From positions 1 through 64,000 of the forward strand of contig CALFNN010000081.1 of the NCBI GenBank assembly GCA_937902925.1: a DNA stretch of 64,000 nt. The letters are read 5' to 3'. Source of the stretch: an uncultured Opitutaceae bacterium. Lineage in GTDB: Bacteria; Verrucomicrobiota; Verrucomicrobiia; Opitutales; Opitutaceae. Shown piece by piece: positions 6,339 through 36,628 of the stretch; position 1 is the stretch's first letter, and each line of letters starts with the position of its first letter. The notes below the pieces were generated by a model that did no database searches, was not told the DNA's origin, and was given only the letters and a program-made list of their open reading frames with translations. Position numbers and translations under genes: made by a program.

Positions 6339-7037
6339 ATGGAATCCCTCATCAAACTCGAAGGCGTCACGAAAGTCTTCCTTACCGACGAAGTCGAAAC
6401 GCACGCGCTGTCCGGCATCCATCTCGACATCCGCCAGGGCGAATACGTCTCCATCGCCGGCCCCTCCGGCTGCGGGAAGTCCACCCTGCTCTCCATTCTC
6501 GGCCTCCTCGATTCGCCGACCGACGGTTCCTACATCCTCAACGGCCGCCCCGTGCAGGGCCTCTCGCTCCCCGAGCGCGCCCGCATCCGCAACCGCGAGA
6601 TCGGGTTCATTTTCCAATCCTTCAATCTCATCGGCGACCTCACGGTCTATGAAAACGTCGAGCTGCCGCTCACCTACCGCGGCATGCCCGCGAGCGAGCG
6701 CAAGGCCGCCGTCACCGGCGCGCTCGAGAAGGTCGGCATGGGCCACCGCGCGAAGCACCTGCCCTCGCAGCTCTCCGGCGGCCAGCAGCAGCGCGTCGCC
6801 GTCGCCCGCGCCCTCGCCGGCCGGCCGGCCGTCCTTCTCGCCGACGAGCCCACCGGCAACCTCGACTCGAAGAACGGCGACTCCGTCATGCAGCTCCTCG
6901 CCGAGCTCCACAAGGGCGGCGCCACGATCGTGATGGTCACCCACGACACGCGCTTCGCCCGGCACGCCGACCGCACGATCCACATCTTCGACGGTCGCGT
7001 GGTGCAGGAGCAGATGGAGACCGATCCCACCCGCTGA
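6339..7037 (+). CDS. ABC transporter ATP-binding protein, MacB/LolD type
   Basis: 232 residues with all ATPase motifs intact: Walker A GPSGCGKST (41-49), Q-loop Q93, signature LSGGQ (145-149), Walker B VLLADE (165-170), H-loop H202. The ILGLLDSPTDG stretch is characteristic of the MacB/LolD/FtsE group, which drives mechanotransmission-type permeases rather than channel-type ones. ATG at 6339 starts exactly at the conserved N-terminus (MESLIKLEGV). The permeases in this cluster have no fused ATPase domain, so this protein is the probable energiser for the array downstream. Confidence 0.95.
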   Translation: MESLIKLEGVTKVFLTDEVETHALSGIHLDIRQGEYVSIAGPSGCGKSTLLSILGLLDSPTDGSYILNGRPVQGLSLPERARIRNREIGFIFQSFNLIGDLTVYENVELPLTYRGMPASERKAAVTGALEKVGMGHRAKHLPSQLSGGQQQRVAVARALAGRPAVLLADEPTGNLDSKNGDSVMQLLAELHKGGATIVMVTHDTRFARHADRTIHIFDGRVVQEQMETDPTR

Positions 7038-7060
7038 GCCCGCCGCTCCGCCGCGTATGC

Positions 7061-7091
7061 GAGGCGTGATTTGGGACGAGCCTCACGCCTC
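7061..7091 (+). promoter_or_regulatory. Intergenic hairpin between ATPase and first permease
   Basis: A perfect 9-bp inverted repeat, GAGGCGTGA (7061-7069) and TCACGCCTC (7083-7091), with a 13-nt loop. There is no T-run after it, so it is not a classical terminator. It may act as an mRNA stability or attenuation element that lowers permease expression relative to adaptor and ATPase; that role is inference. Confidence 0.45.
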
Positions 7092-7139
7092 ACCTTCCCG
7101 TTCCCACCGCTCGTCACCCGTCAAGAGTCACCCGGCCCA

Positions 7140-12189: not shown

Positions 12190-12208
12190 TCCGCCCGCTT
12201 CGCCCGCC

Positions 12209-12961
12209 ATGAAAACCACCGCCTGCCTTCTCGCCGTTCTCGCCGGGTTCGCCACGACCGCGCTCGCCGCGAATTTCACCGCGTCGGAAAAGTTCAGCCA
12301 GACCTACCCGCTCGCCGCCGACGGCGCCCTCCGGCTTGCCAACGTCAACGGCAGCGTCGACATCGCGACCTGGGACCGCAACGAGGTCCTCGTCGAGGCC
12401 GAGAAGCGCGCCGAGTCCACCGCGGACCTCGCTCGCATCCACATCGTCGTCGACCCCCAGCCCGGTCGCCTCGCGATTAAATCCGAGCACGAGAAAACCG
12501 GCTTCTTCGGCCGCGAGGTCCACGGCGAGGTGATCTATCACCTCAAGGTCCCCGCCGGCATCGCGCTCGAGAAAATCGGCGTGGTGAATTCCAGCGTCAC
12601 CGTCCGCGACGTGCGCGGCCCCGTGACGCTCGAAACCGTCAACGGTTCCATCCACGCCTCCGGCCTCGGCGCCGACGTCCGGTTGGAAACCGTCAACGGT
12701 TCCATCCATGCTGCGTTCGCCAAGGTCTCCCCAAGCCAGCGGATCACCGCCGAGTCCGTGAACGGCGCGTGCGAGCTCACGCTGCCGTCCGGCACCGGGG
12801 CCCACCTCGACCTCTCCTCGGTCAACGGCAGCACGCGCTGCGATTTCCCCGTCACGATCGAGAAAACCGGCCGCACCACGCTGCGCGGCACGATCGGCGG
12901 CGGCGGCGCCTCGCTCAAGGCCAACACCGTCAACGGCAGCATCCGCGTCGCGCAGCTCTGA
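12209..12961 (+). CDS. Secreted DUF4097-like beta-repeat protein
   Basis: 250 residues with a clear signal peptide (about 1-20, cut after TALA). The mature part has short beta repeats built on a (V/T)NGS core: NVNGSVDI, TVNGSIHA twice in direct succession, SVNGACEL, SVNGSTRC, and TVNGSIRV at the very end. This matches the DUF4097/DUF4098 putative adhesin fold, a solenoid of beta strands of unknown function often encoded near regulators and ABC transporters. It lies 19 bp after permease 2 and 63 bp before permease 3, so it is probably exported and made with the permeases. It could be a periplasmic or surface partner of the KEKSF-type permeases that follow. Confidence 0.8.
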   Translation: MKTTACLLAVLAGFATTALAANFTASEKFSQTYPLAADGALRLANVNGSVDIATWDRNEVLVEAEKRAESTADLARIHIVVDPQPGRLAIKSEHEKTGFFGREVHGEVIYHLKVPAGIALEKIGVVNSSVTVRDVRGPVTLETVNGSIHASGLGADVRLETVNGSIHAAFAKVSPSQRITAESVNGACELTLPSGTGAHLDLSSVNGSTRCDFPVTIEKTGRTTLRGTIGGGGASLKANTVNGSIRVAQL

Positions 12962-13024
12962 GTTATCTCCGCCTCCTTTTCCCATCGTTCCCACCGTCAT
13001 CGCGGCCCCGCGCCGCCCGTTCCC

Positions 13025-15550: not shown

Positions 15551-15551
15551 A

Positions 15552-15646
15552 AATCCTTCTCGTTCTCTTAATCGTTCTCTCGAAAAAACGTCCGCTGCCT
15601 CCTTCTCGCCGAGAGAACGGGAAAGATTACGATTACGAGAACGATT
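15552..15646. repeat. Hairpin-forming intergenic repeat, copy 1
   Basis: Left arm about 15552-15580 and right arm about 15611-15646 are imperfect inverted repeats built from GTTCTC and TAATC units (GAGAAC and GATTA on the return arm), with a loop of about 30 nt that is not conserved. The same element occurs at 26548 and 31554, always between two co-directional permease genes, where it would form a long mRNA stem. No ORF or transposase is linked to it. Confidence 0.8.
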
Positions 15647-15664
15647 CATTTCCTTCCCTTTCCC

Positions 15665-18154
15665 ATGACCTCGTTCCTCCAGGACCTCCGCATCGGCGCT
15701 CGCGTGCTGTTGAAGGAAAAATCCTTCTGCGCCCTCGCCGTCCTCGTGCTCGCGCTCGGCATCGGCGGCGTCACCACCATGTTCAGTGTCATCGACGGCG
15801 TGCTCCTGCGCGGCATGCCGTTTCCACACCCCGAGCAGCTCGTCGACGTGCAGTGGCGCGATCCCAAGCAGCCGCCGGACGTCACCGCCAACCTGCTGCC
15901 CGCCGACTATCTCGAGTTGCGCACGACCCAAAAATCGTTCGTCGACCTTGCGGCCTACCTCAATCTCTCGACGGTCAACGTCACGATCGACCGCACACCA
16001 CTGCGGCTGCAGGGCGCCTACGTGACGGAAAACTTCTTCTCCCTCGTCGGCGCGAAGCCGGTCATGGGCCGCGATTTCACCGCCGCCGACAACTCCCCCG
16101 AGGCGCCGCGCGTCGCCGTGATCGGCTACTCGACCTGGCAGCACGAGTTCGCGGGTAATCCCGCCATCGTCGGCCAGGCCGTGCGCATCAACGGCCGCGC
16201 GGCAACCATCGTCGGGGTGATGCCGCCGGGCTTCGCGTTTCCCCAGCAGGAGCAGCTCTGGCTGCCGCTCTTCAACACGTTCGCGCCGCCCGCGCGGAAT
16301 TTCCAGGTCGCCGTCGGCCTCGGCGTCGCCGCCGCGCCCAACGTCGGCATCGTCGCCCGCCTCAAGCCCGGCGTGACGCTCGCCGAGGCGAAACACGAGT
16401 GGGACGCGCTCGCCGCGCGTTTCGCCACGATGTATCCCGACACCAACAAGCTTCTCACGGAGTCCGTCGTCCGGCCGCTCGTGCAGGCCTTCGTCGGCCG
16501 CAACCAGCGCATGATGCTCTACCTCATGTTCGGTGCCGTGCTCGGCGTGCTGCTCATCGCCTGCGTCAACGTGATGAACATGCAGTTCGCGCGCGCCACG
16601 CTGCGGCACAAGGAACTCGCGGTCCGCAACGCCCTCGGCGCCACGCGCTGGCGCCTCGTCCGCCAGTTGCTCACCGAAAACATCCTGCTCGCCGCCCTCG
16701 GCGGCACCGCGGGCGTGCTGCTCTCGCTGTATGCGGTCGACCTGTTCAACCACGCGCTCGCCGTGCAACAACCGCCGCCGCCGTTCTGGATCAAGTTCCT
16801 CATCGATCCGCGTGCGCTCGCCTTCACGGTCGGCATCGCGATGGGCGCCGCGGTCCTGTCGGGACTCCTGCCGGCCTTCGTCGCTTCCCGCGCCAACGCC
16901 GCTGACGCGCTCAAGGATGCCGGCCGCGGCAACACCAGCCGCGCCGCCAACGCGATGACGCGCGCGCTCGTCATCAGCCAGATCGGTCTCGCCTGTGCGT
17001 TGCTCGTGCTTTCCACGCTCGTCATCCGCTCCGTCGTCAACCAGCAGCAGATCGACTACGGCTACGACACGAACGCCGTGCTGTCCGCGCGTGTCGGCCT
17101 GTTTTCCACCGACGACTACCCGACCGACGCGGATCGCGGGAAATTCTACGCGCGCGTCCTCCGGCAACTGCGCGCCACGCCCGGCATCGCCGCCGCCTCC
17201 GTGACTTCGCGCTTCCGCATGACGATCGGCGGCAGCGGCCCCTACGAGGTCGAGGGCGTCCCCTACGCCACGCAGCGCGACCGGCCGCAGGGTTCGTTCG
17301 AAAACATCAGCGAGGACTACTTCGCCACGCTCGGCCTGAAAATCCTCGAGGGCCGCGACTTCACGCCCGAGGACAACGACGCCCGCCAGCCGGTCGCGAT
17401 CGTCAACGCCTCGTTCGCCCGCAGGAATTTCGGCGCCGCCAGCGCGCTCGGCCGGCGGATCCGGCCGTTCAACGCCGGCAACCCCGGCCCGTGGCGCACC
17501 ATCGTCGGCGTCGTGCCCGACACCGTGATGCAGGCGCCGCCGCTCAACCCGCGCCTCGACACGACCGGGATGTTCCTCCCGCTGACGGTGCTGTCGCCGC
17601 AGTTCGCCACCATCCTCGTGCGCCCGCCGGGCGGTTCGCCGCACGCGATCGAGGACGCGCTGCGCAAGGCCGTCGCCGCCGTCGATCCCAACCTGCCGCT
17701 CTATTTCGTCAGCACGCCGCAGCAAAGCCACGACGAGTTCCTCGCGCAGAACCGCATCCTCGCGACGATGTTCAGCCTCTTCGGCGCCGTCGCCACCGTG
17801 CTCGCCGCCGTCGGCGTGTATGGCGTGATGGCGTTCGCCGTCAGCCAGCGCACGCAGGAATTCGGCGTCCGCATGGCGCTCGGCGCCGACCGCCGCCAGA
17901 TCGTGACGATGGTGCTCGGTCAGGGCGGCCGCCAGTTGCTCATCGGGCTTGGTCTCGGCCTCGTCGCCGCGGTGACGCTCGTGCTTTGGTTCACCGGCGC
18001 CTACGCCGGGCTGTTCTTCGGCGTCAACCGCTTCGATCCGGCCACCTACGGCTTCGTCGTCGCGCTCCTCAGCGGCGTCGCCGCGATCTCCTGCTTCGTG
18101 CCCGCGCTCCGCGCCACCCGCGTCGACCCGATGGTCGCGTTGCGGGCAGAGTGA
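15665..18154 (+). CDS. Duplicated MacB/FtsX-type ABC permease 4 (KEKSF subgroup)
   Basis: 829 residues beginning QDLRIGARVLLKEKSF. It is closest in motif content to permease 3: GYDTNAVLSARVGLF aligns with GYDTTSLLAARMALM, and both have KILEGRDF. Eight predicted helices and two periplasmic cores in the ADOP arrangement. FtsX signatures are ELAVRNALGA and EFGVRMALGA. The gene follows hairpin repeat copy 1 by 18 bp, so translation begins just beyond that structure. Confidence 0.93.
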   Translation: MTSFLQDLRIGARVLLKEKSFCALAVLVLALGIGGVTTMFSVIDGVLLRGMPFPHPEQLVDVQWRDPKQPPDVTANLLPADYLELRTTQKSFVDLAAYLNLSTVNVTIDRTPLRLQGAYVTENFFSLVGAKPVMGRDFTAADNSPEAPRVAVIGYSTWQHEFAGNPAIVGQAVRINGRAATIVGVMPPGFAFPQQEQLWLPLFNTFAPPARNFQVAVGLGVAAAPNVGIVARLKPGVTLAEAKHEWDALAARFATMYPDTNKLLTESVVRPLVQAFVGRNQRMMLYLMFGAVLGVLLIACVNVMNMQFARATLRHKELAVRNALGATRWRLVRQLLTENILLAALGGTAGVLLSLYAVDLFNHALAVQQPPPPFWIKFLIDPRALAFTVGIAMGAAVLSGLLPAFVASRANAADALKDAGRGNTSRAANAMTRALVISQIGLACALLVLSTLVIRSVVNQQQIDYGYDTNAVLSARVGLFSTDDYPTDADRGKFYARVLRQLRATPGIAAASVTSRFRMTIGGSGPYEVEGVPYATQRDRPQGSFENISEDYFATLGLKILEGRDFTPEDNDARQPVAIVNASFARRNFGAASALGRRIRPFNAGNPGPWRTIVGVVPDTVMQAPPLNPRLDTTGMFLPLTVLSPQFATILVRPPGGSPHAIEDALRKAVAAVDPNLPLYFVSTPQQSHDEFLAQNRILATMFSLFGAVATVLAAVGVYGVMAFAVSQRTQEFGVRMALGADRRQIVTMVLGQGGRQLLIGLGLGLVAAVTLVLWFTGAYAGLFFGVNRFDPATYGFVVALLSGVAAISCFVPALRATRVDPMVALRAE

Positions 18155-18253
18155 ATCTTTCCCTCCAAATCTCTCAGCGAACTTTCTCGCCACAACTGAC
18201 GACCCCGAACCTCCGCGCGAGCCTGCGCTCTCCCGCCATGTAGACCGCTCTTC

Positions 18254-20674
18254 ATGATCTCCCTCCTCCGCCACGGCTTCGTTTCCCTCCGCCGCACGCC
18301 GGTGCTCGCGCTCACCATCATCGCGACGCTCGGCATCGCCCTCGCCGCGACGGTCCTCGTCTTCTCGTTCCTCAATTCGTTTCTGCTCCGCCCGCTGCCT
18401 TACGGCGACGCCACGCGGCTCCTCGTGATCTACGAGCACCCGCTCAAGTCGGGCCGGCAGGACCTCAGCCGCGTCACCGCCGGCAACCTCACCGATCTCA
18501 TGGCGCGGGCCACGTCGTTCTCGCGGACGGGTTTTTTCCGCAACGAATCCGTCACCGTCCACGCCGGCGACGCCACCGAGGTCGACTTTGTCCAGCGCGT
18601 CACCGCCGACGTGTTTCCGATGATGCGCACCGCGCCCGCGTTCGGCGCCGTCATCTCGCCCGCCAATTTCTCGGTCGGCGGCATTCGTGCGGCCCTGCTC
18701 TCCGATGCCCTCTGGCGCCGCCGCTTCGGCGCCGATCCCTCGATCGTCGGCCGCACGATCCAGCTCGACGACAAAAATTACCAGGTGGTCGGCGTGATGC
18801 CCGCCGATTTCCGCGTGCCGAGCGGCGACGATAATCCGCAGGCCTGGCTCGCGCTCCTCCCCGGCGACTATCCCGCCAGCGATCGCACGCAGCGGCGCCA
18901 TCACTTCTGGGCCGAGCTCGCCCCCGGCCGCTCGCTCGCCGCGGCGCAGGGCGAACTCGATGCCATCGCCGCCACGCTTCGCACCGAGCATCCGGCGGAA
19001 AACGCCGACCGCGGCTTCATGGCCCTGACCCTGCGCGACGACATCGTCGGCAATTTCAACCAGCAGCTCTTCCTGCTCCAGGGCGCCGTGCTGCTCGTGC
19101 TGGCCGTGGCGTGCTTCAACTGCCTCTGCCTCCTCATCGCCCGTGCCATCCAGCGCCGCCGCGAATTCGCCGTGCGCCTCGCGCTCGGCGCCGCCCGCCG
19201 CCACCTGCTCGCGCAACTCTTCGCCGAGTCGCTCTGGCTCGCGCTCCCCGCCGCCGCCCTCGCGTGCGGCCTCGCGGAATTGCTCCTGCCGTTCGGTGTC
19301 GCGCTGCTGCCGGCGGACGGCGGGCTCCAGTTGCTGGCCGCCCCGCACGTCGACGCCAACGTCGCCGCCGCGGTCAGCCTCGTCGCGCTGCTGGTCGCCG
19401 GCTCCTTCAGCGCCGTGCCGCTGATCGAAACCCGCCGGCTCAACCTTGAGTCGGCCCTCCGCGAGGGCGGCCGCTCGGCCGGCTCCCCGTCCGGCGCGCG
19501 CGCCGCCCGCTGGCTCGCCGCCGCCCAGATCGCCGTCGCGCTCGCGCTTCTCATCAGCGCCGGTCTCCTCGTGCGCACCCAGCAGCGCCTCGCCGCGCTC
19601 GATCCCGGTTTCCCGATCGCCCACCTGGACCAGTTTCGCGTCGGCCTCCGCGGCAGCACCTACGGCGACCCCGTCCGCCGCCTCGCGTTCTACGAACGCG
19701 TCGCCGACAACCTCCGCATCCTGCCCGGCGTGCGCGATGTCGCCTACTCCAATTTCATCACGACCTCCCCGCCCGCCGGTTACCAGGGGTTCGTCGTCGA
19801 GGGCGACGGCCTTCAGCTTTCCGACACGCCCAAGCGCGCCTTCGCGCGCGCGGTCTCGCCCAATCTTTTCACGACGATTGACCTGCGCCTGCTCGCGGGC
19901 CGTTTTCTTTCCGAGGACGACGTCGACGGCCATCCGCCCGTCGCCGTCATCAACGCCGGCCTGGCCGCGAAATACTGGCCCGGCCAGTCGCCGCTCGGCC
20001 GCCGCGTGCACATCGAGGGCGGTCCGGCCGCGTGGGTCGAAATCGTCGGCGTCGTGTCCGACACGATCGGCTTCGGCAACCAGCCCCAGGTCGTCGACGG
20101 CTTCTATCTCACGCTCGCACAGTGGGTCCAACCCGGCCTCGGCATGGGCTTCATCGTCCGCCACGACGGCCCGGCGCCCGACGAGCGCTCGCTCCAGCGC
20201 GCCGTGTGGCAGGTCGATCCCAACATGCAGTTCTTCGCGCACCAGAACTTCGGGCAGCTCTACACCCGCGCCGCCTGGCGGACACGTTTTGTCACGCAAC
20301 TTGTCGTCACGTTCGCCTTGCTCGCGGTGATCCTCTCGCTCGCCGGCATCTACGCGGTGAACTCGTTCTTCGTCGCCCGCCGCCTCGGCGAATTCGGCAT
20401 CCGCGTCGCGCTCGGCGCCACCTCGCAAAACATCCTCGGCCTCGTCCTGCGCGACAGCCTCCGCCTCACGCTCGCCGGTCTGGCCGTCGGCGTCGTGCTG
20501 GCCGTCCTCGCGAGCCGCGGCCTCGCCGGCCTGCTCTACGCCGTCCCGCCGCTCGATCTCCTCGTCTATGCCGCCGCCGCGTTCGTGATGACCGCGGCCT
20601 GCCTCGCCGCCGCGCTCGTCCCCGCCCGCCGCGCCGCCCGTGTCGATCCGCTCATCGCCCTCCGCGCGGAATGA
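18254..20674 (+). CDS. Duplicated MacB/FtsX-type ABC permease 5 (divergent copy)
   Basis: 806 residues with the same two-repeat layout but a divergent N-terminus: LRHGFVSLRRTPVLAL instead of LAKSPGF or KEKSF, and TM1 lacks the usual LALGIG motif (ATLGIALAATV). FtsX signatures are kept as EFAVRLALGA and EFGIRVALGA. Motifs of both other subgroups are missing, so it looks like a separately evolving lineage placed between the KEKSF copies. It ends with the standard RVDPLIALRAE tail. Confidence 0.92.
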   Translation: MISLLRHGFVSLRRTPVLALTIIATLGIALAATVLVFSFLNSFLLRPLPYGDATRLLVIYEHPLKSGRQDLSRVTAGNLTDLMARATSFSRTGFFRNESVTVHAGDATEVDFVQRVTADVFPMMRTAPAFGAVISPANFSVGGIRAALLSDALWRRRFGADPSIVGRTIQLDDKNYQVVGVMPADFRVPSGDDNPQAWLALLPGDYPASDRTQRRHHFWAELAPGRSLAAAQGELDAIAATLRTEHPAENADRGFMALTLRDDIVGNFNQQLFLLQGAVLLVLAVACFNCLCLLIARAIQRRREFAVRLALGAARRHLLAQLFAESLWLALPAAALACGLAELLLPFGVALLPADGGLQLLAAPHVDANVAAAVSLVALLVAGSFSAVPLIETRRLNLESALREGGRSAGSPSGARAARWLAAAQIAVALALLISAGLLVRTQQRLAALDPGFPIAHLDQFRVGLRGSTYGDPVRRLAFYERVADNLRILPGVRDVAYSNFITTSPPAGYQGFVVEGDGLQLSDTPKRAFARAVSPNLFTTIDLRLLAGRFLSEDDVDGHPPVAVINAGLAAKYWPGQSPLGRRVHIEGGPAAWVEIVGVVSDTIGFGNQPQVVDGFYLTLAQWVQPGLGMGFIVRHDGPAPDERSLQRAVWQVDPNMQFFAHQNFGQLYTRAAWRTRFVTQLVVTFALLAVILSLAGIYAVNSFFVARRLGEFGIRVALGATSQNILGLVLRDSLRLTLAGLAVGVVLAVLASRGLAGLLYAVPPLDLLVYAAAAFVMTAACLAAALVPARRAARVDPLIALRAE

Positions 20675-20750
20675 ATCCCTTCCCTCCTCCCCCTCGATCC
20701 GTCTGACGAAAGCGAATCACCAAACGCAACCGACCGCACTCCCCTCTCCC

Positions 20751-23177
20751 ATGGCCTCCTTTCTCCAAGATCTCCGCATCGGCTGGCGTGTCCTGTTGAA
20801 GGAAAAATCCTTCTTCGCCATCTCCGTCTTCATCCTCGCGCTCGGGATCTGTGGCGTGACGACGCAGTTCAGCGTCATCAACTCCGCGCTGATCCGCGGC
20901 CTGCCCTTTCCCGATGCCGGTCGCCTGGTGCGCGTCGCGCTGCGCGATCCGTCGTGGGCGCCCGAGCGCACCCGCGGCCTCTTCGCGACCAACCTCCTGG
21001 CCTGGTCCGGCCAGCAGAAATCGTTCACCGGGCTCGCCGGCTACTTTCTCAACGGTTCGTTCATCGCCACGATTCACGACGTGCCGGAGCGGTTCAGCGG
21101 ATCGCACGTGACCGACGGATTTTTCTCCGTGCTCGGCGTCAAGCCCGCGCTTGGCCGCGACTTCACCGCCGCCGATCAGCGGACGGAGGCGCCGCGCGTC
21201 ACGATCATCAGCGACGCGTTCTGGCAATCCGAGTTCGCGCGCGATCCGAACATCCTCGGCCGCACCTTCCGGCTCAACGGCCGCACCGCCACGGTGATCG
21301 GCGTGATGCCGGCGGACTATGAGTTTTCCCGCGACCAGTTGTGGCTGCCGATGTTCAACGAGTATTCGATGGCGTCGGGCACCGGCGGCGTGGGCAGCGT
21401 CGTCGGCCGGCTGAAATCCGGCGTCTCGCTCGAGCAGGCCGCGGCGGAAATGAGCGGGTTCGCGCAGCGGGCCGCGCAGGAATCCCCCGACACGAATCGC
21501 AACCTCACCGAGGCCGTCGTCGAGCCGCTGCTGAACGTCTTCGTCGGCCGGGACGCGCGGGAGTTGATGACCGTGATGCTCGTGGCGGTCGTCGCCGTGC
21601 TGCTCATCGCCTGCATCAATGTCATGAACATGCAGTTCGCCCGGGCCACCCGGCGCGCGAAGGAACTCGCCGTGCGCGGCGCGCTCGGCGCTTCGCGCGC
21701 GCGGCTGGTCGCGCAGATGCTGACCGAAAGCCTGATCGTCGCGATGCTGGGCGGCACCCTCGGCGTGCTGCTCGCCGCGTGGGCGATCGACTTTTACTCC
21801 GGCCTGGTCAGCTCGCTCCCCGGCGGCAGCGCGCTGCCTGTCTGGTTGCGGTTCCAAATCGATGGCACCGTGCTCGCCGGCACGCTCGCGGCGGTCGCCG
21901 CCGCCGTCCTCTTTTCCGGTCTCCTGCCTGCCTTGCTCGCCTCGCGCACCAACGCGCTCGACGTCCTCAAGGAGGGCGGCCGCGGCCATACGAGCCGGTT
22001 CGTCAAGCGCGCGACCGGCGGGCTTGTCGTGGGGCAGATCGCCCTGACCGGCGCGTTGTTGATCGCGTCGCTGCTGCTCGTGAAATCCGTCCGCAGCCGC
22101 TACGCGTTGGACCTGGGCTACGACGCCACCACCGTCCTCGCCGGCCGGATGAACTTCGAGACCGACTACCACGACGACGACGCGGTCCGGGCGATCCAGG
22201 CCAGGGTCCTCCAGCGCCTGCGCAGCGTGCCGGAGCTCACCGCGGCGGCCTTCACGTCGCGCCGCAACATGATGACGAACAGCTCGCTCAGCCTCCAGCT
22301 CGAGGGCCGCGAGTCGGAGCACGTGGCCACCGCCTCCGAGTTCATCAGCGACGGCTATTTCGCCACGCTCGGGCTGCAGGCCCGCCAGGGTCGCGAGTTC
22401 GCGCTCACCGACACGCCCGACTCGCCGATGGTCGTGCTTGTCAACGCGACGTTCGCCCAAAAATACTTTCCGCGGGGCGACGCGCTTGGTCACCGCGTGC
22501 GCGAGGATCCGACCGAACCGTGGCGCACGATCGTCGGCGTCGTGCCCGACACGCTCATGCAGGGGCCGCTCGATCCGCGGGCGGACGGCGCCGGGCTGTT
22601 CATTCCGCTCGCGAACTATGCGCAGCCCTACGTGACGCTCGTCGTGCGCGGGCACGGCGCGGCGCTCGCGCTGCGCGAGACAGTGCGGCGCGAACTCGCC
22701 CGCGTCGACCCCAACCTCGCGATCTATCAACTCGACACCCCGCAGAGATTTCTCCGCAGCGCGCTCGCGCAGACCCGGACGGTGACCACGCTCTTCGGCG
22801 TGTTCGCCCTCGTGGCGGTCGTGCTCTCCGTCGTCGGCCTCTACGGCGTGGCGGCGTTCTCGGTCAGCCAGCGCACCTCGGAATTCGGCATCCGGATCGC
22901 CTTGGGCGCCACTCCACGGGAAATCATGCGGATGGTCCTCGGCCAGGGCCTGGGGCGCTTTGCCATCGGGGCGCTGCTCGGGATCGGTCTCGCCTTCGCC
23001 CTCACGCGCTTCGGTGGCGCCGTGTTGAACAACTTCCTCTACAAGACCAGCCCACACGACCCGGCGACCTACGTCCTCGTCACCCTGCTCCTCGGCGCCG
23101 CCACCCTGCTCGCCTGCCTCGTCCCCGCCCGGCGCGCCACCCGCATCGACCCCATGACCGCGCTCCGGGCGGAATAA
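20751..23177 (+). CDS. Duplicated MacB/FtsX-type ABC permease 6 (KEKSF subgroup)
   Basis: 808 residues starting QDLRIGWRVLLKEKSF, the third member of the KEKSF subgroup (CINVMNMQFARATRRAKELA after TM2; EFGIRIALGA at the end). ATG at 20751 matches the conserved start; an in-frame start at 20640 would lie within permease 5. Relative to copies 3 and 4 it has a shorter second core. It probably arose by duplication of the same ancestor, with permease 5 now separating it from them. Confidence 0.93.
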   Translation: MASFLQDLRIGWRVLLKEKSFFAISVFILALGICGVTTQFSVINSALIRGLPFPDAGRLVRVALRDPSWAPERTRGLFATNLLAWSGQQKSFTGLAGYFLNGSFIATIHDVPERFSGSHVTDGFFSVLGVKPALGRDFTAADQRTEAPRVTIISDAFWQSEFARDPNILGRTFRLNGRTATVIGVMPADYEFSRDQLWLPMFNEYSMASGTGGVGSVVGRLKSGVSLEQAAAEMSGFAQRAAQESPDTNRNLTEAVVEPLLNVFVGRDARELMTVMLVAVVAVLLIACINVMNMQFARATRRAKELAVRGALGASRARLVAQMLTESLIVAMLGGTLGVLLAAWAIDFYSGLVSSLPGGSALPVWLRFQIDGTVLAGTLAAVAAAVLFSGLLPALLASRTNALDVLKEGGRGHTSRFVKRATGGLVVGQIALTGALLIASLLLVKSVRSRYALDLGYDATTVLAGRMNFETDYHDDDAVRAIQARVLQRLRSVPELTAAAFTSRRNMMTNSSLSLQLEGRESEHVATASEFISDGYFATLGLQARQGREFALTDTPDSPMVVLVNATFAQKYFPRGDALGHRVREDPTEPWRTIVGVVPDTLMQGPLDPRADGAGLFIPLANYAQPYVTLVVRGHGAALALRETVRRELARVDPNLAIYQLDTPQRFLRSALAQTRTVTTLFGVFALVAVVLSVVGLYGVAAFSVSQRTSEFGIRIALGATPREIMRMVLGQGLGRFAIGALLGIGLAFALTRFGGAVLNNFLYKTSPHDPATYVLVTLLLGAATLLACLVPARRATRIDPMTALRAE

Positions 23178-23216
23178 TTGCGGAAATATTCCTCGCCATC
23201 ACCTCTCCCGCACCCG

Positions 23217-24092
23217 GTGAAAAAACGTCTCGTCCTCCTCCTGACCGCGCTGGGCTGCACGACGCCCGTATTCGCCGTCGTCGACCCGGCCGCGCTCGAC
23301 GCGGCGCGCACGCTTTTCAGCTCGACCGGCAAATCCCGCGAGGCCCAGGCCGCGTATGAAAAGATCGCCGCCGCCGACCCGGCGTGCGCCGAGGCGCAGC
23401 GGTCGCTCGCCGAGCTCGCACTGCGGCGCGACGACGCCGACCAGGCCCTGGCCTATGCCGGGAAAGCCGTGGCGCTCTCGCCCGACAACGACGACTGCCA
23501 GACCACGCTCGGCGACGCCTGCGGCCGCGCCGCGCAAAAGGCCTCCATCTTCCGCCAGCCCGGCCTCGCAAAAAAATGCCTCGCCGCCTACCAGCGCGCC
23601 GCCGAGCTCGCGCCCGCGAAGGTCCGCTCCCACCAGAACCTGTTCGAGTTCTACCGGCAGGCGCCCGGCTTCCTCGGCGGCGGCACCGCCAAGGCCCTCG
23701 CCGAGGCCGCGACCATCAAGCAGCTCGATGTGCCGCAAGGCTGCCTCGCGTTCGTCACGCTCTACGCCGCCGACAAACAATACGACCTTGCCTTCGCCGA
23801 GTTCGACGAGGCCCTCCGGGCTTCGCCCGATAATTACACGGCGCTCTACTACGTCGGCCGCCTGGCCGCCACCACGGGCCAGCATCTGGACCGCGGCCTC
23901 GCCTCGCTCCGCCATTGTCTCGAGCTCACTCCGGGAAAAAACGACCCGCCCCTCGCCGCCGCCCACTGGCGCATCGGCAACATCCTCGAGAAGAAAAACG
24001 ATCCCGTCGGCGCGCGCGCCGCCTACGAGGCCGCGTTGCAGGCCGACCCCAAATTCGCGCAGGCCGCCGACGCGCTGAAAAAACTTCGCTAG
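23217..24092 (+). CDS. Secreted TPR-repeat protein
   Basis: 291 residues from a GTG at 23217, which places the signal peptide ([13 protein letters not shown]...PVFA) at the N-terminus; a TTG at 23178 would add 13 residues ahead of it. The mature protein carries several 34-residue TPR-like units (for example [38 protein letters not shown], and [18 protein letters not shown] near the C-terminus). TPRs mediate protein-protein contacts, so this may be a periplasmic scaffold. It lies between permeases 6 and 7, with 39 and 8 bp spacings, so it is almost certainly co-transcribed with them. Confidence 0.85.
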
Positions 24093-24100
24093 CCCGCCCC

Positions 24101-26542
24101 ATGCTCACCGACCTCCGTCACGCCCTCCGCTCGCTCGCCAAGTCCCCCGACTTCACCGCCGTCGCCGTCCTGACGCTCGCCGTCGGCATCGGCGCCAACA
24201 CCGCGATCTTCTCGCTCATCGACTCGCTGCTGCTCCGCTCGCTTCCGTTCGCCGAGCCCGACCGGCTGCTCCGCGTTTACGGCGACGCCCCCGAGCGCCA
24301 GCTCAGCCAGCTCAACCTCTCCGTTCCGAAGTTCCAGCACCTGCGCGACCACCAGACCGTGTTCTCCTCCCTCGCCGCCCATACCGGCGCGGCGTTCACG
24401 CTCACGGGTTTCGGCGATCCCGTGCAGATTCCCGGCCAGCATGTCACGGCAAATTATTTCGACGTGATGGGCGTGCACTTGGCGCAGGGCCGCATGTTCC
24501 GTTCCGACGAGGAGGACGCTGCGCCCGTCGCGATCGTCAGTGATGGATTCTGGCGCACGCGCCTCGCGGCCGATCCCGCCGTGCTCGGCCGCACGCTCCA
24601 GCTCGATGGCGAACCCGTCACCATCATCGGCGTGCTCCCGCCGCTCTCGACCGTCGATGTCGGCCCCACCGATGTCTGGACCACCCGGCCGTTCGAACTC
24701 GCCGGGGTCGCGCGCGAACTGCTTCAGCGTGGAGTGAGTTATCTCCGCGTGATCGGCCGGTTGAAACCCGGCGTCACTCCCGAGGCCGCCGCGGCCGAGT
24801 TCAAGCTCCTCGGCGAAAGCTATCGCGCGACCTATCCCGACAAGGCGGACGCCACCTGGCAGGTTTCGCTGCTGGCGCTGCGCGAGGACCTTTTCGGGTC
24901 CTACCGCCCCGCCCTGCTCACGTTGCTGGGCGCCGTCGGCTTCGTGCTGCTCATCGCCTGCAGCAACGTCGCCAATCTCCTCCTCGTTCGCTTCACCGGC
25001 CGGCGCCGCGAGATCGCCATCCGCGCCGCCTTGGGCGCCACCCGCAGCCGGCTCGTGCGGCTGTTCCTCACCGAAAGCCTCGTGGTGAGCCTGCTGGCGG
25101 GCGGGCTCGGCGTGCTCATCGCCCTCTGGAGTTTGCAACTGCTCACGCAGCTCGGCGCCGCGCTGCCGGCGCCTCCCGCCGTCGAGCTTAACCTTCCGGT
25201 CCTGGCGTTCACCCTCGTCCTCAGCTTCGCGAGCGGCGCGTTGCTCGGCCTTTATCCCGCCCTCCAGGCCTCGCGCAGCGGCGTCGCCGAAGTCCTGAAG
25301 GAGGGCGGCCGCGGTAACACCGCTTCGCGCGCCCAGAATCGCTTTCGCGCGTTGCTCCTCGGTGGGCAGGTCGCGTTGTCGCTCGCGCTCCTCGTCGCCG
25401 CCGGGCTGCTGCTCGCCAGTTTTGCCCGGCTCTCGCGCCAGCCCGCCGGCTTCGATCCGCGCCACCTCTTCACCGCGGCCATCAACGTCCCACCCACGCG
25501 CTACGCCGATGCGCAGCACCAGTGGGATTTCTACAACCAGCTCGCCGAAAACCTCCGCCACGCTCCCGGCGTGCAGCAGGCGGCGCTCGTCAACGGTCTT
25601 CCTCTCACGGGCAACAACTCCCGCGCGCCCTATGCCCGCGCCGACGGCGAGGTCGCCCCGCTCAACCGCCGCCCCCTCGGGCTCACGCGCTCCGTCACGC
25701 CCGGTTATTTCGCGACGCTCGGCGTTCCGTTCGTGGCGGGTCGCGACTTCACCCTGCGCGATCGCGCCGATGCTCCGCAGACCGTCATCATCAGCGCTGC
25801 AACGGCGAAGCGCCTTTTCCCCGGCGAGGATCCGCTCGGCCATCGGTTGCTGATGGGCTCGAACAACGGCACCGGTCTCGCGATGGAGATTGTCGGCGTC
25901 GTCGGCGACGTGCGCTCCGCCTCGCTCGCCCAGGAGAACAACGTGGAGTTTTACCGCCCGCTCTCGCAGCGCGGCAACACCTTCGTCCAGCTCGTCGTCC
26001 GCCTCGCCGCCGCGCCCCAAAACGCCGGCACCGCCGACGCCGCGATCTTCACGCCGACCGCGCGCACCGTGCTGCGCGACCTCGACACCGCGATCCCGCT
26101 CACCCAACCCGCCACGATGGACGCGATCTTCGACGATTCGCTCGGCCAGCAACGCCTGCTCCTGTCGCTCCTCGCGATTTTCGCCAGCCTCGCCGTCGCC
26201 CTGGCCGCGGTCGGGATCTACAGCGTCGTCGCGTTCATGGTCGGCCAGCGCACCGGTGAAATCGGCGTGCGACTCGCCCTTGGCGCCACTCCCGCCGACA
26301 TCCGCACGCTCGTTCTCGGGCAGGGCATGAAGCCCGTGCTCCTCGGCCTGGCCGCCGGCCTCGCCGCCACGCTCGCACTCGCCCGCCTCCTCGCGGCCCA
26401 ACTCTACGGCGTCGCCAGCTACGACCCGTTCACGCTCGGTGCCGCCACCACCGGCCTCGCCCTTGTCGCGCTGCTCGCCTGCTGGCTCCCCGCCCGCCGC
26501 GCCGCCCGCATCGACCCGATGATCGCCCTCCGCGCCGAGTGA
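24101..26542 (+). CDS. Duplicated MacB/FtsX-type ABC permease 7
   Basis: 813 residues, first of the SPGF/SPDF-type copies in the second half of the array ([20 protein letters not shown]). TM1 carries the typical [16 protein letters not shown]. FtsX signatures are [10 protein letters not shown] and [10 protein letters not shown]. Its ATG is 8 bp after the TPR gene, implying tight coupling to it. The C-terminus is [12 protein letters not shown] full set of eight helices and two periplasmic cores is predicted. Confidence 0.93.
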
Positions 26543-26547
26543 ACATC

Positions 26548-26653
26548 AATCGTTCTCGTTCTCCTAATCCTCATCGCTCTCTCGACGAAAAATCCCGCCG
26601 CCACCTCCCTCCCGCCCAAGAGAACGAGCAAGATTACGATTGAGAGAACGATT
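26548..26653. repeat. Hairpin-forming intergenic repeat, copy 2
   Basis: Starts 5 nt after the stop of permease 7. Left arm about 26548-26583 begins with AATCGTTCTCGTTCTCCTAA; right arm about 26619-26653 ends with GAGAGAACGATT. The spacer (about 35 nt) differs from the other copies, while the arms are conserved, as expected of a repeat under selection for its fold. Confidence 0.8.
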
Positions 26654-26664
26654 CCTCCCCCGCC

Positions 26665-29082
26665 ATGCACAACCTCCGCCACGCCTTCCGCTCGCTCCTG
26701 AAATCCCCCGGCTACACCGCGCTCGCCGTCGGCGCGCTCGCCCTCGGCATCGGCGCCAACACCGTCCTCTTCTCCGCGATCGACACGCTCTTTCTCCGTC
26801 CGCTCCCCTACGCTCATCCGGACGAGCTCGTCCGCGTCTGGGGCTCGTTCCCCGAGCGCGGACTCGAGCAGGCCAACGTGTCGTGGCCGCGCTACCAGGC
26901 GTTGCGCGACGGCCAGCAAAACTTCTCGTCGCTCGCCGCGCATGCGTTCACCGGTTTCACGCTCACCGGCCGCGGCGATCCCGAACGCGTCGCCGCGATG
27001 CGCGTGACCGCCAACTTCTTCCCCACGCTCGGCGTGCAACCCGAGCTCGGCCGGTCGTTCACCACCGCCGAGGATCGGCCCGGCGGCGCCAACGTCGTGC
27101 TCCTCAGCCACGGCTTCTGGGAACGTCAGTTCGGCGGCGATCCGCATGTCGTCGGCCAGACCCTCACGCTCAACGGCGCCACGCACACGATCATTGGCGT
27201 CCTGCCGCCCTCGCTCTCGTTTCCCTGGGCGCAGATCCAGGTCTGGGCGCCGCGCGTGTTCGACTTGGAAGGCCTGCCCGCCGACCTCGTGCAACGCGGC
27301 ACCGGCTACCTGCTCGTGCTCGGACGGCTCAAGCCCGGCGCCACGCCCGCCCAGGCCCAGGCGCAGTTGCGCGGCGTCTCCCAGGCCTATGGCGCAGCCA
27401 ACCCGGAGAAGGTCGACTCCAACGCCGGCTTGTCCGCGCCTTCGTTCCACGAGGATCTGGTCGGCGGCCAGCGGCCGATGTTCCTCACCCTGCTCGCCGC
27501 CGTCGGCTGCGTGCTGCTCGTCGCCTGCGCCAACGTCGCCAATCTCCTCCTCGCCCGCTTCACCGCCCGTCGCAAGGAGATCGCCATCCGCACCGCGCTC
27601 GGCGCCACCCGCGGCCGCATCGTCGCGCAATTCCTCACCGAGAGCGTCCTGACCGCCGCGCTCGCCGGCCTGCTCGGCGTGCTGCTCGCCGTCTGGGGCA
27701 TCGACGTGCTCGCGCGCGTCGGCGCGGATTTCCTTCCGCGCGTCGCCGATCTCTCGCTCGACCGCACCGTGCTCGGCTTCGCCGTCGCGCTCTCGCTGCT
27801 CACGGGCCTCGGCCTCGGCATCGTGCCGGCCGTGCAGGCCTCGCGCACCGATCCCGGCGAATCGCTCAAGGATTCCGCGCGCGGCTCCACCGGCGGACGC
27901 CACACCGGCCGCCTCCGCTCCGGCCTGCTCGTCGCCGAGGTCGCGCTCTCGCTCGTGCTGCTCGTCGGCGCCGCGCTGCTGACCGACAGCTTCCGCCGCC
28001 TGCAAAACGTCGCACCCGGGTTCCGCTCCGCCGACATCACAAGCTTCAACCTCGCGCTTCCCGCCGGCACCTATCCCGACATCGGCAGCCAGGGCCGCCT
28101 CTTCGAGCAGGTAATCGCCAGACTGCTCGCCGTCCCCGGCGTCACCCATGCCGCCGCCACGGCGAGCCTGCCGGTCGCCGCCGGCGGGTCCACGCGGTCG
28201 CCCGCCTCCGTCGAGGGCCGCCCCGTGCCGCCCGTCAACGAGCGCGCCATCATGCTTCGCTCGACCATCACGCCCGGTTTTTTCGCCGCGCTCGATATCC
28301 CGGTCAAGCAGGGCCGCGATTTCAACTGGCGCGACCGCGGCGACGCCCCGCGCGTCGTCATCATCAACGCGTCGCTCGCGCAGAAATTCTTTCCCGGCGA
28401 GAACCCGATCGGCCGCCGGCTCATCACCGGCATCGCCTCCATCCCGCGCGAAATCGTCGGCGTCGTCGGCGACGTCCGTTCGCAAAGCCTTTCGCTGACG
28501 CCCGCGCCCGAGATGTATTATCCCTCCACGCAGGAGGACGGCGCTTTCCTCAGCGTGGTCGTCCGCAGCACCCGCCCCGCCGCCAGCCTCCGCGCCGAGC
28601 TGGTCGCCGCCGTGCACGCCGTCGATCCCGGCCTGCCCGTCGCCGAGGTAAAGTCCTACGACGAACTGCTCGCCGATGCGGTCGCCGACCGCCGCCTGTC
28701 GGTGCTGATGCTCGGCGCCTTCGCCGCGCTCGCGCTCGTCCTCGCCGGCATGGGCATCTACAGCGTGATCGCCTACGGCGTCGCGCAACGCACCAACGAA
28801 TTTGGCGTCCGCATGGCGCTCGGCGCCGAGCCGGCCGACATCGTCCGCCTCGTGATGAAGGAGGGCTTCCGCCTCGCGCTGCTCGGCCTCGCGATCGGCC
28901 TGGCTGCGGCGGTCGCGCTCACGCGCCTGATGCAGAGCCAGCTCTTCGAGGTCAGCCCGACGAACCCGGCCGTCCTCGGCGGCGTCGCCCTCTTCCTCGC
29001 CGCCGTCGCCGCCCTAGCCTGCTTCGTCCCCGCCCGCCGCGCGACGAAAATCGACCCCATGGTCGCCCTCCGCGCGGAGTGA
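26665..29082 (+). CDS. Duplicated MacB/FtsX-type ABC permease 8
   Basis: 805 residues beginning LRHAFRSLLKSPGYTALAV. The ADOP layout is complete, with FtsX signatures EIAIRTALGA and EFGVRMALGA and the tail KIDPMVALRAE. In TM1 it has [19 protein letters not shown]. It starts 11 bp after hairpin repeat copy 2. The opposite strand and another plus frame are also open across it because of the high GC; the permease frame is the one with family motifs. Confidence 0.93.
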   Translation: MHNLRHAFRSLLKSPGYTALAVGALALGIGANTVLFSAIDTLFLRPLPYAHPDELVRVWGSFPERGLEQANVSWPRYQALRDGQQNFSSLAAHAFTGFTLTGRGDPERVAAMRVTANFFPTLGVQPELGRSFTTAEDRPGGANVVLLSHGFWERQFGGDPHVVGQTLTLNGATHTIIGVLPPSLSFPWAQIQVWAPRVFDLEGLPADLVQRGTGYLLVLGRLKPGATPAQAQAQLRGVSQAYGAANPEKVDSNAGLSAPSFHEDLVGGQRPMFLTLLAAVGCVLLVACANVANLLLARFTARRKEIAIRTALGATRGRIVAQFLTESVLTAALAGLLGVLLAVWGIDVLARVGADFLPRVADLSLDRTVLGFAVALSLLTGLGLGIVPAVQASRTDPGESLKDSARGSTGGRHTGRLRSGLLVAEVALSLVLLVGAALLTDSFRRLQNVAPGFRSADITSFNLALPAGTYPDIGSQGRLFEQVIARLLAVPGVTHAAATASLPVAAGGSTRSPASVEGRPVPPVNERAIMLRSTITPGFFAALDIPVKQGRDFNWRDRGDAPRVVIINASLAQKFFPGENPIGRRLITGIASIPREIVGVVGDVRSQSLSLTPAPEMYYPSTQEDGAFLSVVVRSTRPAASLRAELVAAVHAVDPGLPVAEVKSYDELLADAVADRRLSVLMLGAFAALALVLAGMGIYSVIAYGVAQRTNEFGVRMALGAEPADIVRLVMKEGFRLALLGLAIGLAAAVALTRLMQSQLFEVSPTNPAVLGGVALFLAAVAALACFVPARRATKIDPMVALRAE

Positions 29083-29123
29083 TTTTTCCAACTCTGGACT
29101 CTCAGCCCTCAGCTTTCGACTTC

Positions 29124-31547
29124 ATGCTCGCCGACCTCCGTTTCGCCGTCCGTTCCCTCCTGAAATCCCCCGGCTTCACCCTCGTCGCCGTGCTGACCCT
29201 CGCGCTCGGCATCGGGGCGAACACCGCCCTCTTCAGCACGTTCAACACCCTCGTGCTGCACCCGATGACGGTCCCCCAGTCCGACCAACTCGTCCGCGTC
29301 TGGGCCAGCAACCCCACCGTGAACTTCAGCGGCCCGTTCCTCTCGTGGCCGCGTTACGAGTTCATCCGCGACCAGCAAAAATCCTTCACGAGCCTCTCGG
29401 CCGCCACCTCCACCGGTTACGCGCTCACCCGCGCCGGCGCCGAGCCCGAGCAGCTCAACGCGCTCCAGGTCTCCGCCAGCTTCTTTCCCACGCTCGGCAT
29501 CCAGCCGGTCCGCGGCCGCAACTTCACCGCCGCCGAGGACACCGCCGGCGGCCCCAATGCCGCGATGCTCAGCTACGAGTGCTGGCAGACGAAGTTCGGC
29601 GGACGCGAGTCGGTCGTCGGCGAAAACCTCATGCTCAACGGCGCGTCCTGCACCGTCGTCGGCATCCTGCCGCGCGCCCTCGGCAACCCGTTCGGCACGG
29701 TGATGGTCTTCGTGCCGCGCGCCTTCGAGGCCAACGGGCTCACGCCCGTCCAGGTGCAAAACGGCGCCGGTTATCTCGGCGTCACCGCGCGGCTCAAGCC
29801 CGGCGTGTCGCTGGCGCAGGCGGCCGCCGAGATGAAGACGCTCTTCGCCGACTACAACGCCGCCTACCCCGCGCGCCTCGACGGCAAGATCAACCCCGTG
29901 GTCGTCACGTTCGCCGAGGAACTCGTCGGCAACCTGAAGCCGACATTCTACCTGCTGCTGGCCGCCGTCGGCTTCGTGCTGCTCATCGCCTGCGCCAACG
30001 TCGCCGCCCTGTTCCTCGGCCGGCTCTCGGCCCGCCACAAGGAAATCGCCGTCCGCCTCTCGCTGGGGGCGACGCGCGGCCAGCTCGTCCGCCAGTTTTT
30101 CGTCGAGAGCCTCCTCTTCTCCGCCGCCGCCGGCGGGCTCGGCGTCCTGTTCGGCTGGTGGGCGCTCGCCGCGATCCAACGCCTCTCGTCGAGCCAGATT
30201 CCGGCGGGCGTCACTCTCACGGTCGACCCCGCGGCGCTCGCGTTCACCGTCGGCCTCTCCGTGCTGTCCGCGGTCCTGATCGGGCTCGTTCCCGCGTTGA
30301 ATGCCTCGCGCACCGACGTCGCCGAGGTGCTCAAGGACACCGCCCGCAGCGCCGCGGGCGGCACGCGCGGCGCCCGCGTCCGCGGCGGGCTGATCGTCGG
30401 CGAGGTGCTGTTGTCCGTCGTGCTGCTCGTCGGCTCCTCGCTTCTGCTCGTCAGCTTCGTCCGGCTGCAGCGCACGCCGCCCGGCTTCGAGGTGTCCGGC
30501 GTCGGCACCGCGTTCCTCAACATCGCCGGCCCGCGCTACGCCACCGGCCCGCAACAGGCCGACTTCTTCGCCCGGCTGGTCGAGCGCCTCGAGGCGCAGC
30601 CGCGCGTGCAGGGCGCCGCCGTCGCGGTCGGTCTGCCCCTCAGCGGTTTCCAGGTGCGCTCGCCCTATGTCGTCGGCGGCCGGCTCGTGCCGCCGCTGCC
30701 CGAACGCGCGCTCGCGCAGCTCGACATCGTGAGCGAGCACTACTTCGCCACCATGGGCGTCCCCCTCCGGGCCGGCCGCGCGTTCACGACCCGGGACAAC
30801 GAGCACGCCCCGGTCGTCTGCCTTGTCAACGAGTCGTTCGCCCGCCGGCTGTTCCCCGCCGGATCGGCCGTCGGAAAAATCCTCCGCCGCGGCCGCGACG
30901 CCGGGATCCCGTGCGAGATCGTCGGCATCGCCGCCGATGTAAAGAGCAACGGCCTCAACGCCCCGCCGCCCGACGAGATGTATCTCTCGTTCCGCCAGCT
31001 CGCCCGCCCCGGCGCCAGCCTGGTCGTGCGCACGACCGGCGACCCCGCGGCGCTCCAGGCGGTGATGCGCTCCACACTCGCGTCGCTCGACGGCACGATC
31101 CCGCTCACGTTGTTCGCCACGCTCGAGACGACCGTCCGCCAGTCGCTCGCCTTCCAGCGCATCACCGCGTGGCTCACCGGCATCTTCGCCGGGGTCGCGC
31201 TCGTGCTGTCGGTCGTCGGGCTCTATTCGGTGCTGGCCTACGCCGTCACGCAGCGCACGAACGAGATCGGCCTCCGCATGGCGCTCGGTGCGCAGCGCGA
31301 GCAGGTCGTCGGCCTCGTCCTCCGCCGCGGCCTCCGCCTCGTCGTGGTCGGTCTGGTCCTCGGGCTCGCCGTCGCCGCGGGCGCCTCGCGGCTCATCGCC
31401 ACGCTGCTCTACAACGTCCAGCCGCTCGACCCGCTCGTCTACGGCGGCGTCGCGGTCCTGTTCGCCACCATCGCGACGCTCGCCTGCCTCGTGCCCGCGC
31501 TCCGCGCCAGCCGCATCGACCCGCTGATCGCGTTGCGCGCGGAGTGA
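29124..31547 (+). CDS. Duplicated MacB/FtsX-type ABC permease 9
   Basis: 807 residues starting LRFAVRSLLKSPGFTLVAVL. It is clearly closest to permease 12: both have TPVQVQNGAGY in the first core, KPTFYLLL/KPTFYTLL before TM2, FLGRLSARHKEIAVRLSLGA-type FtsX segments, RTPPGFE before the second core, and NVQPLDP near the end. ATG at 29124 is the real start; the frame stays open far upstream through permease 8, but that stretch is a non-coding shadow. The tail is RIDPLIALRAE. Confidence 0.93.
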   Translation: MLADLRFAVRSLLKSPGFTLVAVLTLALGIGANTALFSTFNTLVLHPMTVPQSDQLVRVWASNPTVNFSGPFLSWPRYEFIRDQQKSFTSLSAATSTGYALTRAGAEPEQLNALQVSASFFPTLGIQPVRGRNFTAAEDTAGGPNAAMLSYECWQTKFGGRESVVGENLMLNGASCTVVGILPRALGNPFGTVMVFVPRAFEANGLTPVQVQNGAGYLGVTARLKPGVSLAQAAAEMKTLFADYNAAYPARLDGKINPVVVTFAEELVGNLKPTFYLLLAAVGFVLLIACANVAALFLGRLSARHKEIAVRLSLGATRGQLVRQFFVESLLFSAAAGGLGVLFGWWALAAIQRLSSSQIPAGVTLTVDPAALAFTVGLSVLSAVLIGLVPALNASRTDVAEVLKDTARSAAGGTRGARVRGGLIVGEVLLSVVLLVGSSLLLVSFVRLQRTPPGFEVSGVGTAFLNIAGPRYATGPQQADFFARLVERLEAQPRVQGAAVAVGLPLSGFQVRSPYVVGGRLVPPLPERALAQLDIVSEHYFATMGVPLRAGRAFTTRDNEHAPVVCLVNESFARRLFPAGSAVGKILRRGRDAGIPCEIVGIAADVKSNGLNAPPPDEMYLSFRQLARPGASLVVRTTGDPAALQAVMRSTLASLDGTIPLTLFATLETTVRQSLAFQRITAWLTGIFAGVALVLSVVGLYSVLAYAVTQRTNEIGLRMALGAQREQVVGLVLRRGLRLVVVGLVLGLAVAAGASRLIATLLYNVQPLDPLVYGGVAVLFATIATLACLVPALRASRIDPLIALRAE

Positions 31548-31553
31548 CCGCCC

Positions 31554-31658
31554 AATCGTTCTCGTTCTCCTAATCCTAATCGTTCTCCCAAAAGAAAAGC
31601 CAACGCCTGCCTCTTCCCGCCCGGGAGAACGAGAAAGATTACGATTAAGAGAACGATT
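31554..31658. repeat. Hairpin-forming intergenic repeat, copy 3
   Basis: Left arm about 31554-31588 (AATCGTTCTCGTTCTCCTAA, then TCCTAATCGTTCTC) and right arm about 31624-31658 (GAGAACGAGAAAGATTACGA, ending GAGAACGATT). This is the best preserved of the three copies. It occupies nearly the whole gap between permeases 9 and 10. Confidence 0.82.
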
Positions 31659-31673
31659 GTTTCACCCGCTCCC

Positions 31674-34082: not shown

Positions 34083-34169
34083 CCAATCCGTGGCGAGCAT
34101 ATCGAACCAGCCATCTCCATCGCCCCGCCTGCCCGCCACCCGCCACTCACGGCTCGCTACTTTCCACCC

Positions 34170-36581: not shown

Positions 36582-36628
36582 TTTTCCACCACTGATAACG
36601 GACACCACACCCAGTCGCACCAATCCTT

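Follow-up and report, generated by a model that had tools for sequence, protein, structure and literature searches.

What are the hairpin repeats of about 100 bp that separate some of the permease genes in this stretch of DNA, and why do they lie there? The window, i.e., the whole 64,000-nucleotide stretch that was analysed, carries an array of permeases. MacB_PCD and FtsX domains were matched in six of seven window frames submitted to Pfam; the seventh, 29345-31570, is in the wrong frame, and the permease ending at 31547 starts near 29124. A sequence-only reading had located three hairpins in permease–permease gaps, and their coordinates were reproduced exactly:

15552-15646, no strand assigned: ORF-less hairpin copy 1, with arms of 6-nt units; the preceding permease ends at 15550 and the next starts at 15665.
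26548-26653, no strand assigned: ORF-less hairpin copy 2; the preceding permease ends at 26542 and the next starts at 26665.
31554-31658, no strand assigned: ORF-less hairpin copy 3; the preceding permease ends at 31547 and the next starts at 31674.

For copies 1, 2 and 3 in turn, 1, 5 and 6 nt separate the hairpin from the preceding permease stop codon, and 18, 11 and 15 nt separate it from the ATG that follows; the hairpins occupy most of their gaps, which are 114, 122 and 126 nt long. As had been observed before, these are the largest gaps between adjacent permeases, both in 13025-23177 (others 99 and -35 nt) and in 23915-39034 (others 41, 87 and 47 nt).

The arms proved to be inverted repeats, as described earlier, so that stem-forming inverted ends, a feature of the intervening sequences (IVSs) of 23S rRNA, are present in the window copies. 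Each arm is a run of tandem 6-nt units, AATCGT or TCTCGT in type and drifting in sequence (as in AATCGT TCTCGT TCTCCT AATCCT AATCGT TCTC), and the second arm is a comparable run in reverse complement; the arms are imperfect as mirror images, with unit types shuffled between them. The lag-6 self-match in the three hairpin gaps gives p values of 0.0025, 0.0005 and 0.0005. The earlier description of conserved arms around an unconserved loop needs correction on two points: the arms are tandem 6-nt units, and the three window loops are related, with only 2, 4 and 2 of 500 shuffles aligning equally well. These loops of tens of bases lack an S23p (PF05635) gene, and no gene remnant was seen in the loops of the nine own-genome hairpins that were scored. 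Relative to dinucleotide shuffles, the fold z values of copies 1, 2 and 3 are -2.5, -3.4 and -7.4 on the + strand and -2.2, -5.5 and -8.0 on the - strand; on both strands, therefore, copies 2 and 3 fold clearly better than the shuffles, copy 3 most of all, and copy 1 does so weakly. Rfam returned no match up to E = 1 in window positions 12000-40000, and no rRNA match. Scanning the window for periodic inverted arms of any kind was unspecific, with 17 hits, the three known hairpins among them, compared with 6, 11, 7, 14 and 12 in five shuffles.

One role suggested for the repeats was that of a recombination hot spot that helped the array to expand. A search of the genome with copy 1 recovers copy 2 at 76% and copy 3 at 79% DNA identity, whereas the permeases on either side of the hairpins share 45–53% protein identity, which makes such a role unlikely. 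Judging from these identities, the noncoding hairpins probably spread after the gene duplications.

A genome-wide search with the arm sequence, which had been proposed as a check, yielded 61 AATCGTTCTCNTTCTC sites with at most two mismatches compared with one site for a reversed control; the 61 sites overlap one another, and single arms as well as a number of chance matches within genes are counted among them. From 17 loci, 12 two-armed ORF-less hairpins were extracted, the remaining five (L008, L009, L027, L211 and L215) being without an arm pair. Three of the 12 are the window copies, two lie in permease gaps of contig C33 and seven lie elsewhere, in gene contexts judged by eye that include the sufB-sufD gap and the gap between two metH pieces (gene names read from translations). 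The restriction to permease–permease gaps thus holds within the window and breaks down genome-wide, with 7 of 12 two-armed copies between other genes. An absence of further copies had been named as an outcome that would count against the repeat; further copies exist. With at most one mismatch, AATCGTTCTCNTTCTC is found in 19 of 38 genomes, our own included, against a control site in 3 of 38, although some of the 19 have merely one or two sites, possibly by chance. In two other genera of the family, 18 (G023) and 13 (G017) hairpins were extracted from the loci fetched. One G017 subfamily is dispersed, with copies 87–95% identical; 12 of 19 aligned copies have an inner flank beyond the hairpin in common, and some end in outer inverted ends GTCCTGATTTC / GAAATCAGGAC by eye (e.g., L231 13600-13800). 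G017 also contains other dispersed palindromes of GTAGGAGCGGC and GTAGCAGCCG types in many copies, with a REP-like look (L231 6623-6739, 8560-8800 and 17751-17870), and a different ORF-less hairpin of ~9-nt units (CGCGGAGAA) lies between two genes, by eye, at G000:C12:22983 (L212) in our own genome.

The position and folding of the window copies would suit a cis-acting mRNA device that protects or processes the polycistronic permease transcript and is kept by selection: they fit closely between the stop codon of one gene and the start codon of the next in the same direction, and their folding beats shuffles. However, none of 18 terminator-like sites falls at the three hairpins, and copies occur between unrelated genes, including, as judged by eye at C57 and C70:333139, at least one pair in convergent and one in divergent orientation. 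Covariation between the arms, a further check proposed earlier and one whose failure had been named as counting against the idea, was not found in three genomes, where arms within one hairpin pair no better than arms across hairpins of the family. Same- versus cross-hairpin complementarity was 0.724 versus 0.692 in our own genome (p 0.13, 12 hairpins), 0.797 versus 0.798 in G023 (p 0.51, 18 hairpins) and 0.610 versus 0.675 in G017 (p 0.98, 13 hairpins); here, the full window copy replaced the shortened L003 row, and the G003 hairpin was unused. Selection on pairing is thus not supported within the family.

The origin of the hairpins is illuminated by a longer relative. At G000:C70:366397-366883, arms of the window type surround an ORF of 139 aa with matches to the S23p family of four-helix bundles (PF05635, TIGR02436); this copy lies after miaB, not in rRNA. 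The AATCGT/TCTCGT family of 6-nt units in our own genome thus comprises this one gene-bearing copy and 12 extracted two-armed gene-less ones. The four other PF05635 matches of the genome, one of them below the family cut-off, also lie between inverted arrays, with units near GTGACGT, GTTGAAA, ATTTACG and ATGACGA. GTTGAA units occur in both forms, around the PF05635 gene at C38 and in the ORF-less hairpin C67:111-215; the loose GTTGAA pattern has 12 sites compared with 5 for its control, but the strongest of the 12 are those at C38 and C67, arranged in pairs that face each other. GTGACNN units have 28 own-genome sites and none for the control. Three of these are the arms at C34 and 25 lie elsewhere, mostly as single arrays in the loci inspected by eye (14 loci, with L286 and L294 not centred on the hit).

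Two GTGAC arrays at G000:C104:199754-199887 (L281, L347) are part of the reading frame of a ribonucleotide reductase gene, in its C-terminal tail, and the repeat is thus translated there (SQVTGHTSH, TSQVTSHTSQ). Close to them is a retron-type reverse transcriptase by PADLOC (L347:1372-2190 on the - strand, 272 aa), the sole RVT_1 match of the genome. No link to a role as motor of the element emerged from this single RVT_1 protein near two GTGAC arrays.

The gene-bearing relative bears on whether the hairpins could be a REP/REPIN or a MITE moved by a transposase encoded elsewhere, for which the copies are suitably dispersed, intergenic and palindromic; for a MITE in particular, the common flanks of the 12 G017 copies and the outer inverted ends of some of them are also favourable. 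We nevertheless consider this very unlikely, because the arms are tandem short-unit arrays and the gene within the same arms is a four-helix-bundle gene and no transposase. In addition, the genome, searched for PF01797 and RVT_1, has no match to Y1_Tnp (PF01797) at E <= 0.001, and the same search matched in 5 of 14 control genomes, which speaks against the REP form that had been suggested. Target-site duplications, another of the checks proposed, were not seen by eye at the flanks of 44 hairpins or in the 19 aligned G017 copies.

To what extent PF05635 genes generally lie in such arrays was examined with an arm score, the best local match between the upstream flank and the reverse complement of the downstream flank. 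Inverted arms (score >=16) flank 91 of 110 PF05635 loci, i.e., 31 of 34 in the bacterial family of the window and 60 of 76 in other genomes, and 19 of 110 fail the arm test. The first set consists of 34 fetched loci (5 from our own genome and 29 others) rather than of all matches; the 76 are the usable ones of 80 loci from GTDB genomes of many phyla, four having too little flank (L110, L128, L132 and L140). All are the best-scoring matches of their searches rather than random ones, and the sample is biased in this respect. Control placements elsewhere in the same loci reach the score in 2.5% of 3992 cases, and none of the scored loci of two control genes, sufD and a second one, has inverted arms (0 of 28 each, from 30 loci per gene). 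The Pfam search for PF05635 gave no match in 14 well-known control genomes, and no rRNA gene was found at the 38 PF05635 loci scanned with Rfam.

The common feature of the arms is their period, the unit sequence varying between loci. Mean self-match of the arms reaches 0.63 (lags 7 and 14), and no other lag between 3 and 13 exceeds 0.30; the best period among the 91 loci is 7 in 75, 8 in 11, 6 in two or three, and 5 or 9 in a few. With its 6-nt units, the window family is therefore one of the rarer forms. Over all pairs of 86 loci (the 91 less those with arms longer than 90 nt), arm similarity tracks protein identity only weakly (Mantel r 0.095, p 0.011). Recognition of the arms by their sequence was considered and rejected, with a Mantel p of 0.11 below 60% protein identity and of 0.22 between the two collections.

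Short tandem arrays can also be explained with no element at all, if replication slippage makes the 7-nt arrays and inverted pairs arise by chance or template switching. Heptamers are over-represented among the simple repeats of many bacteria, slippage has been proposed for them in the available parts of two papers (PMC4679880, PMC4692102), and solo arrays are common in our own genome. Slippage leaves unexplained, however, the concentration of inverted arrays at PF05635 genes (91/110 compared with 2.5% of placements and 0/56 control-gene loci) as well as a family with the same arms at many sites, and we regard it as quite improbable.

Comparison of orthologous gaps adds a view of presence and absence. 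For the gap after miaB, 30 loci were classed by eye, with miaB unparsed in several (including G006, G010 and G001). Full elements with AATCGT arms are present in our own genome (G000), G023 and G003; a PF05635 gene lies 171 nt before the same downstream gene in G006, and a truncated PF05635 remnant is found in G001; G022 and probably G010 have a solo arm of the family; arrays of other units occupy the gap in G024, G021, G015 and G017; and the gap is 10–18 nt without an array in G018, G004, G026 and G037. For the sufB-sufD gap, 19 of 30 sufD loci could be parsed, of which by eye three have an AATCGT-type hairpin (our own genome, G003 and, in drifted form, G017), six a hairpin of other units and ten none. 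In one gap compared across three species of one genus, G017 has an AATCGT hairpin and G074 a different one of the CACAGAGCG type, and the gap of G073 is empty. The full, bare-hairpin, solo-arm, other-array and empty states look like the outcome of insertion and decay at gaps that were entered time and again. At the G017 locus after miaB (L306), a 7-nt array seems by eye to enter the end of miaB, extending the protein (ESPESRVQSRT).

The recurrence of different hairpins in the same gap of relatives is also what selection for an mRNA device would yield, but the same gap is hairpin-free in several relatives, and with the evidence on pairing and gene context above we consider such a device unlikely. 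In our view, the tuning of permease ratios, which had been suggested, is not the reason for their presence. The idea of a mobile element, in a broad sense, is by comparison supported by (i) the dispersed copies, (ii) the filled and empty orthologous gaps and (iii) the gene-bearing relative with the same arms.

The window hairpins are probably gene-less copies of a selfish element whose full form is a PF05635/TIGR02436 gene between inverted short-unit arrays. What has been observed is that the two forms have arms in common, that arrays generally flank PF05635 genes in the sampled loci, that copies are dispersed, and that orthologous gaps occur in filled, empty and solo-arm states. By analogy, the element may work like the 23S rRNA intervening sequences. 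Its transcript would fold into a hairpin cleavable by RNase III, as in those sequences; an insertion between two cistrons would separate them with the coding sequence unbroken, and so be tolerated. Spread would follow a route that perhaps needs the four-helix-bundle protein in trans, and decay would lead from the full element to a bare hairpin and on to a solo arm.

Further gaps of the permease array hold likely remains of other repeats:

7113-7131, - strand: probable solo array with 7-nt GTGACNN units, from a second family, weak, just upstream of a permease start.
29083-29123, no strand assigned: likely solo array of 7-nt units that fills a permease–permease gap (lag-7 p 0.002).
34083-34169, no strand assigned: permease–permease gap with a likely degenerate 7-nt array in its second half, weak (lag-7 p 0.016).

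The first has one mismatch to the GTGACNN units that flank the PF05635 gene at C34, and the gap that holds it, 7037-7142, has a lag-7 p of 0.0475; the third has CCCGCCA units at 34132-34146. All lag-7 p values come from 11 gaps and are uncorrected for that number. Likely 7-nt arrays with other units in these gaps suggest that several repeat families visited the array, or so it seems. Very long open frames lie antisense to the permeases, e.g., 12158-20428 on the - strand, with up to 2756 aa, and are probably a by-product of high G+C codon use.

A wider generalization is offered tentatively, at somewhat less than even confidence. There may be a pan-bacterial selfish class, so far not seen as a unity, in which a single S23p/Avd-like four-helix-bundle gene lies in inverted arrays defined by how long the units are (mostly 7 nt) rather than by their sequence. 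The heptamer repeats reported separately from Xanthomonas, Beggiatoaceae and cyanobacteria would be bare hairpins and solo arms of this class, the 23S IVS would be merely its best-known landing site, and the ring-shaped protein would recognise a hairpin of fixed repeat phase, helping the element to move or taming the element at the RNA level. For S23p proteins as for heptamer repeats, descriptions have offered neither a function nor a common explanation, as far as the available parts of the sources go (PMC4990558, PMC4692102). If most S23p genes sit in short-unit inverted arrays, the two puzzles join, and the repeats are traces of the element. The old question of IVS spread could then be tested outside rRNA, in ordinary bacteria rich in recent copies (the G017 genus, for example), and many unannotated intercistronic hairpins, including those of the permease array, would be explained. 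No paper tying S23p genes to intergenic arrays generally was found in the literature covered, a scope outside which preprints and most subscription papers fall.

Among known systems, the IVSs of 23S rRNA in Coxiella, Leptospira and others are like the element in having an S23p/PF05635 gene between inverted stem-forming ends (PMC4990558, in the parts available). In the same parts of that paper, RNase III is described as cutting the stem of the S23p-bearing IVS of Coxiella, the pieces staying separate, and tandem heptamers GACAGAT precede the S23p gene, with the cut at the first repeat; the arrangement of an array plus S23p is thus already in print for one rRNA-located case. Xcc0516 (2gsc), which the profile of A1 matches at 3.7e-38, is reported there to be a homopentamer of four-helix bundles. 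Unlike these gene-bearing IVSs, the window copies are gene-less, and both of their arms are tandem arrays of 6-nt units. The defining location of an IVS is inside the 23S rRNA gene, and the window copies lie between protein genes, the permeases; the hairpins are thus not classed as IVSs.

REP/REPIN sequences with RAYT (Y1_Tnp) are likewise short intergenic palindromes in many copies, but our own genome is without Y1_Tnp, and the arms here are longer tandem arrays. MITEs are similarly short, ORF-less and dispersed, with inverted ends and a longer gene-bearing relative with the same ends; the partner gene here, in contrast, is a four-helix-bundle gene and no recognisable transposase, and no target-site duplication was seen by eye.

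Bacterial heptamer repeats are similar in being intergenic tandem 7-nt units, and those of Xanthomonas form inverted pairs. In the available parts of PMC4692102, inverted pairs of GGGAATC are given for 70 and 75 cases, generally without association with mobile elements, and heptamers of Calothrix are cited; in those of PMC4679880, the TAACTGA repeats of Beggiatoaceae are without an evident transfer mechanism. The window units differ in being 6 nt long, so the hairpins fall outside a class defined by 7-nt units, and no S23p link is made in the same parts of the two papers. At PF05635 loci, GGGAATC-type arms were found in Luteimonas (not Xanthomonas itself), with a score of 20 compared with a locus control maximum of 19, and TCAGTTA arms, the reverse complement of TAACTGA, in Phycisphaerae, with a score of 22 compared with a control maximum of 13. 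The hairpins are real and more widespread than first noted, and are most likely gene-less derivatives of an S23p-type element.
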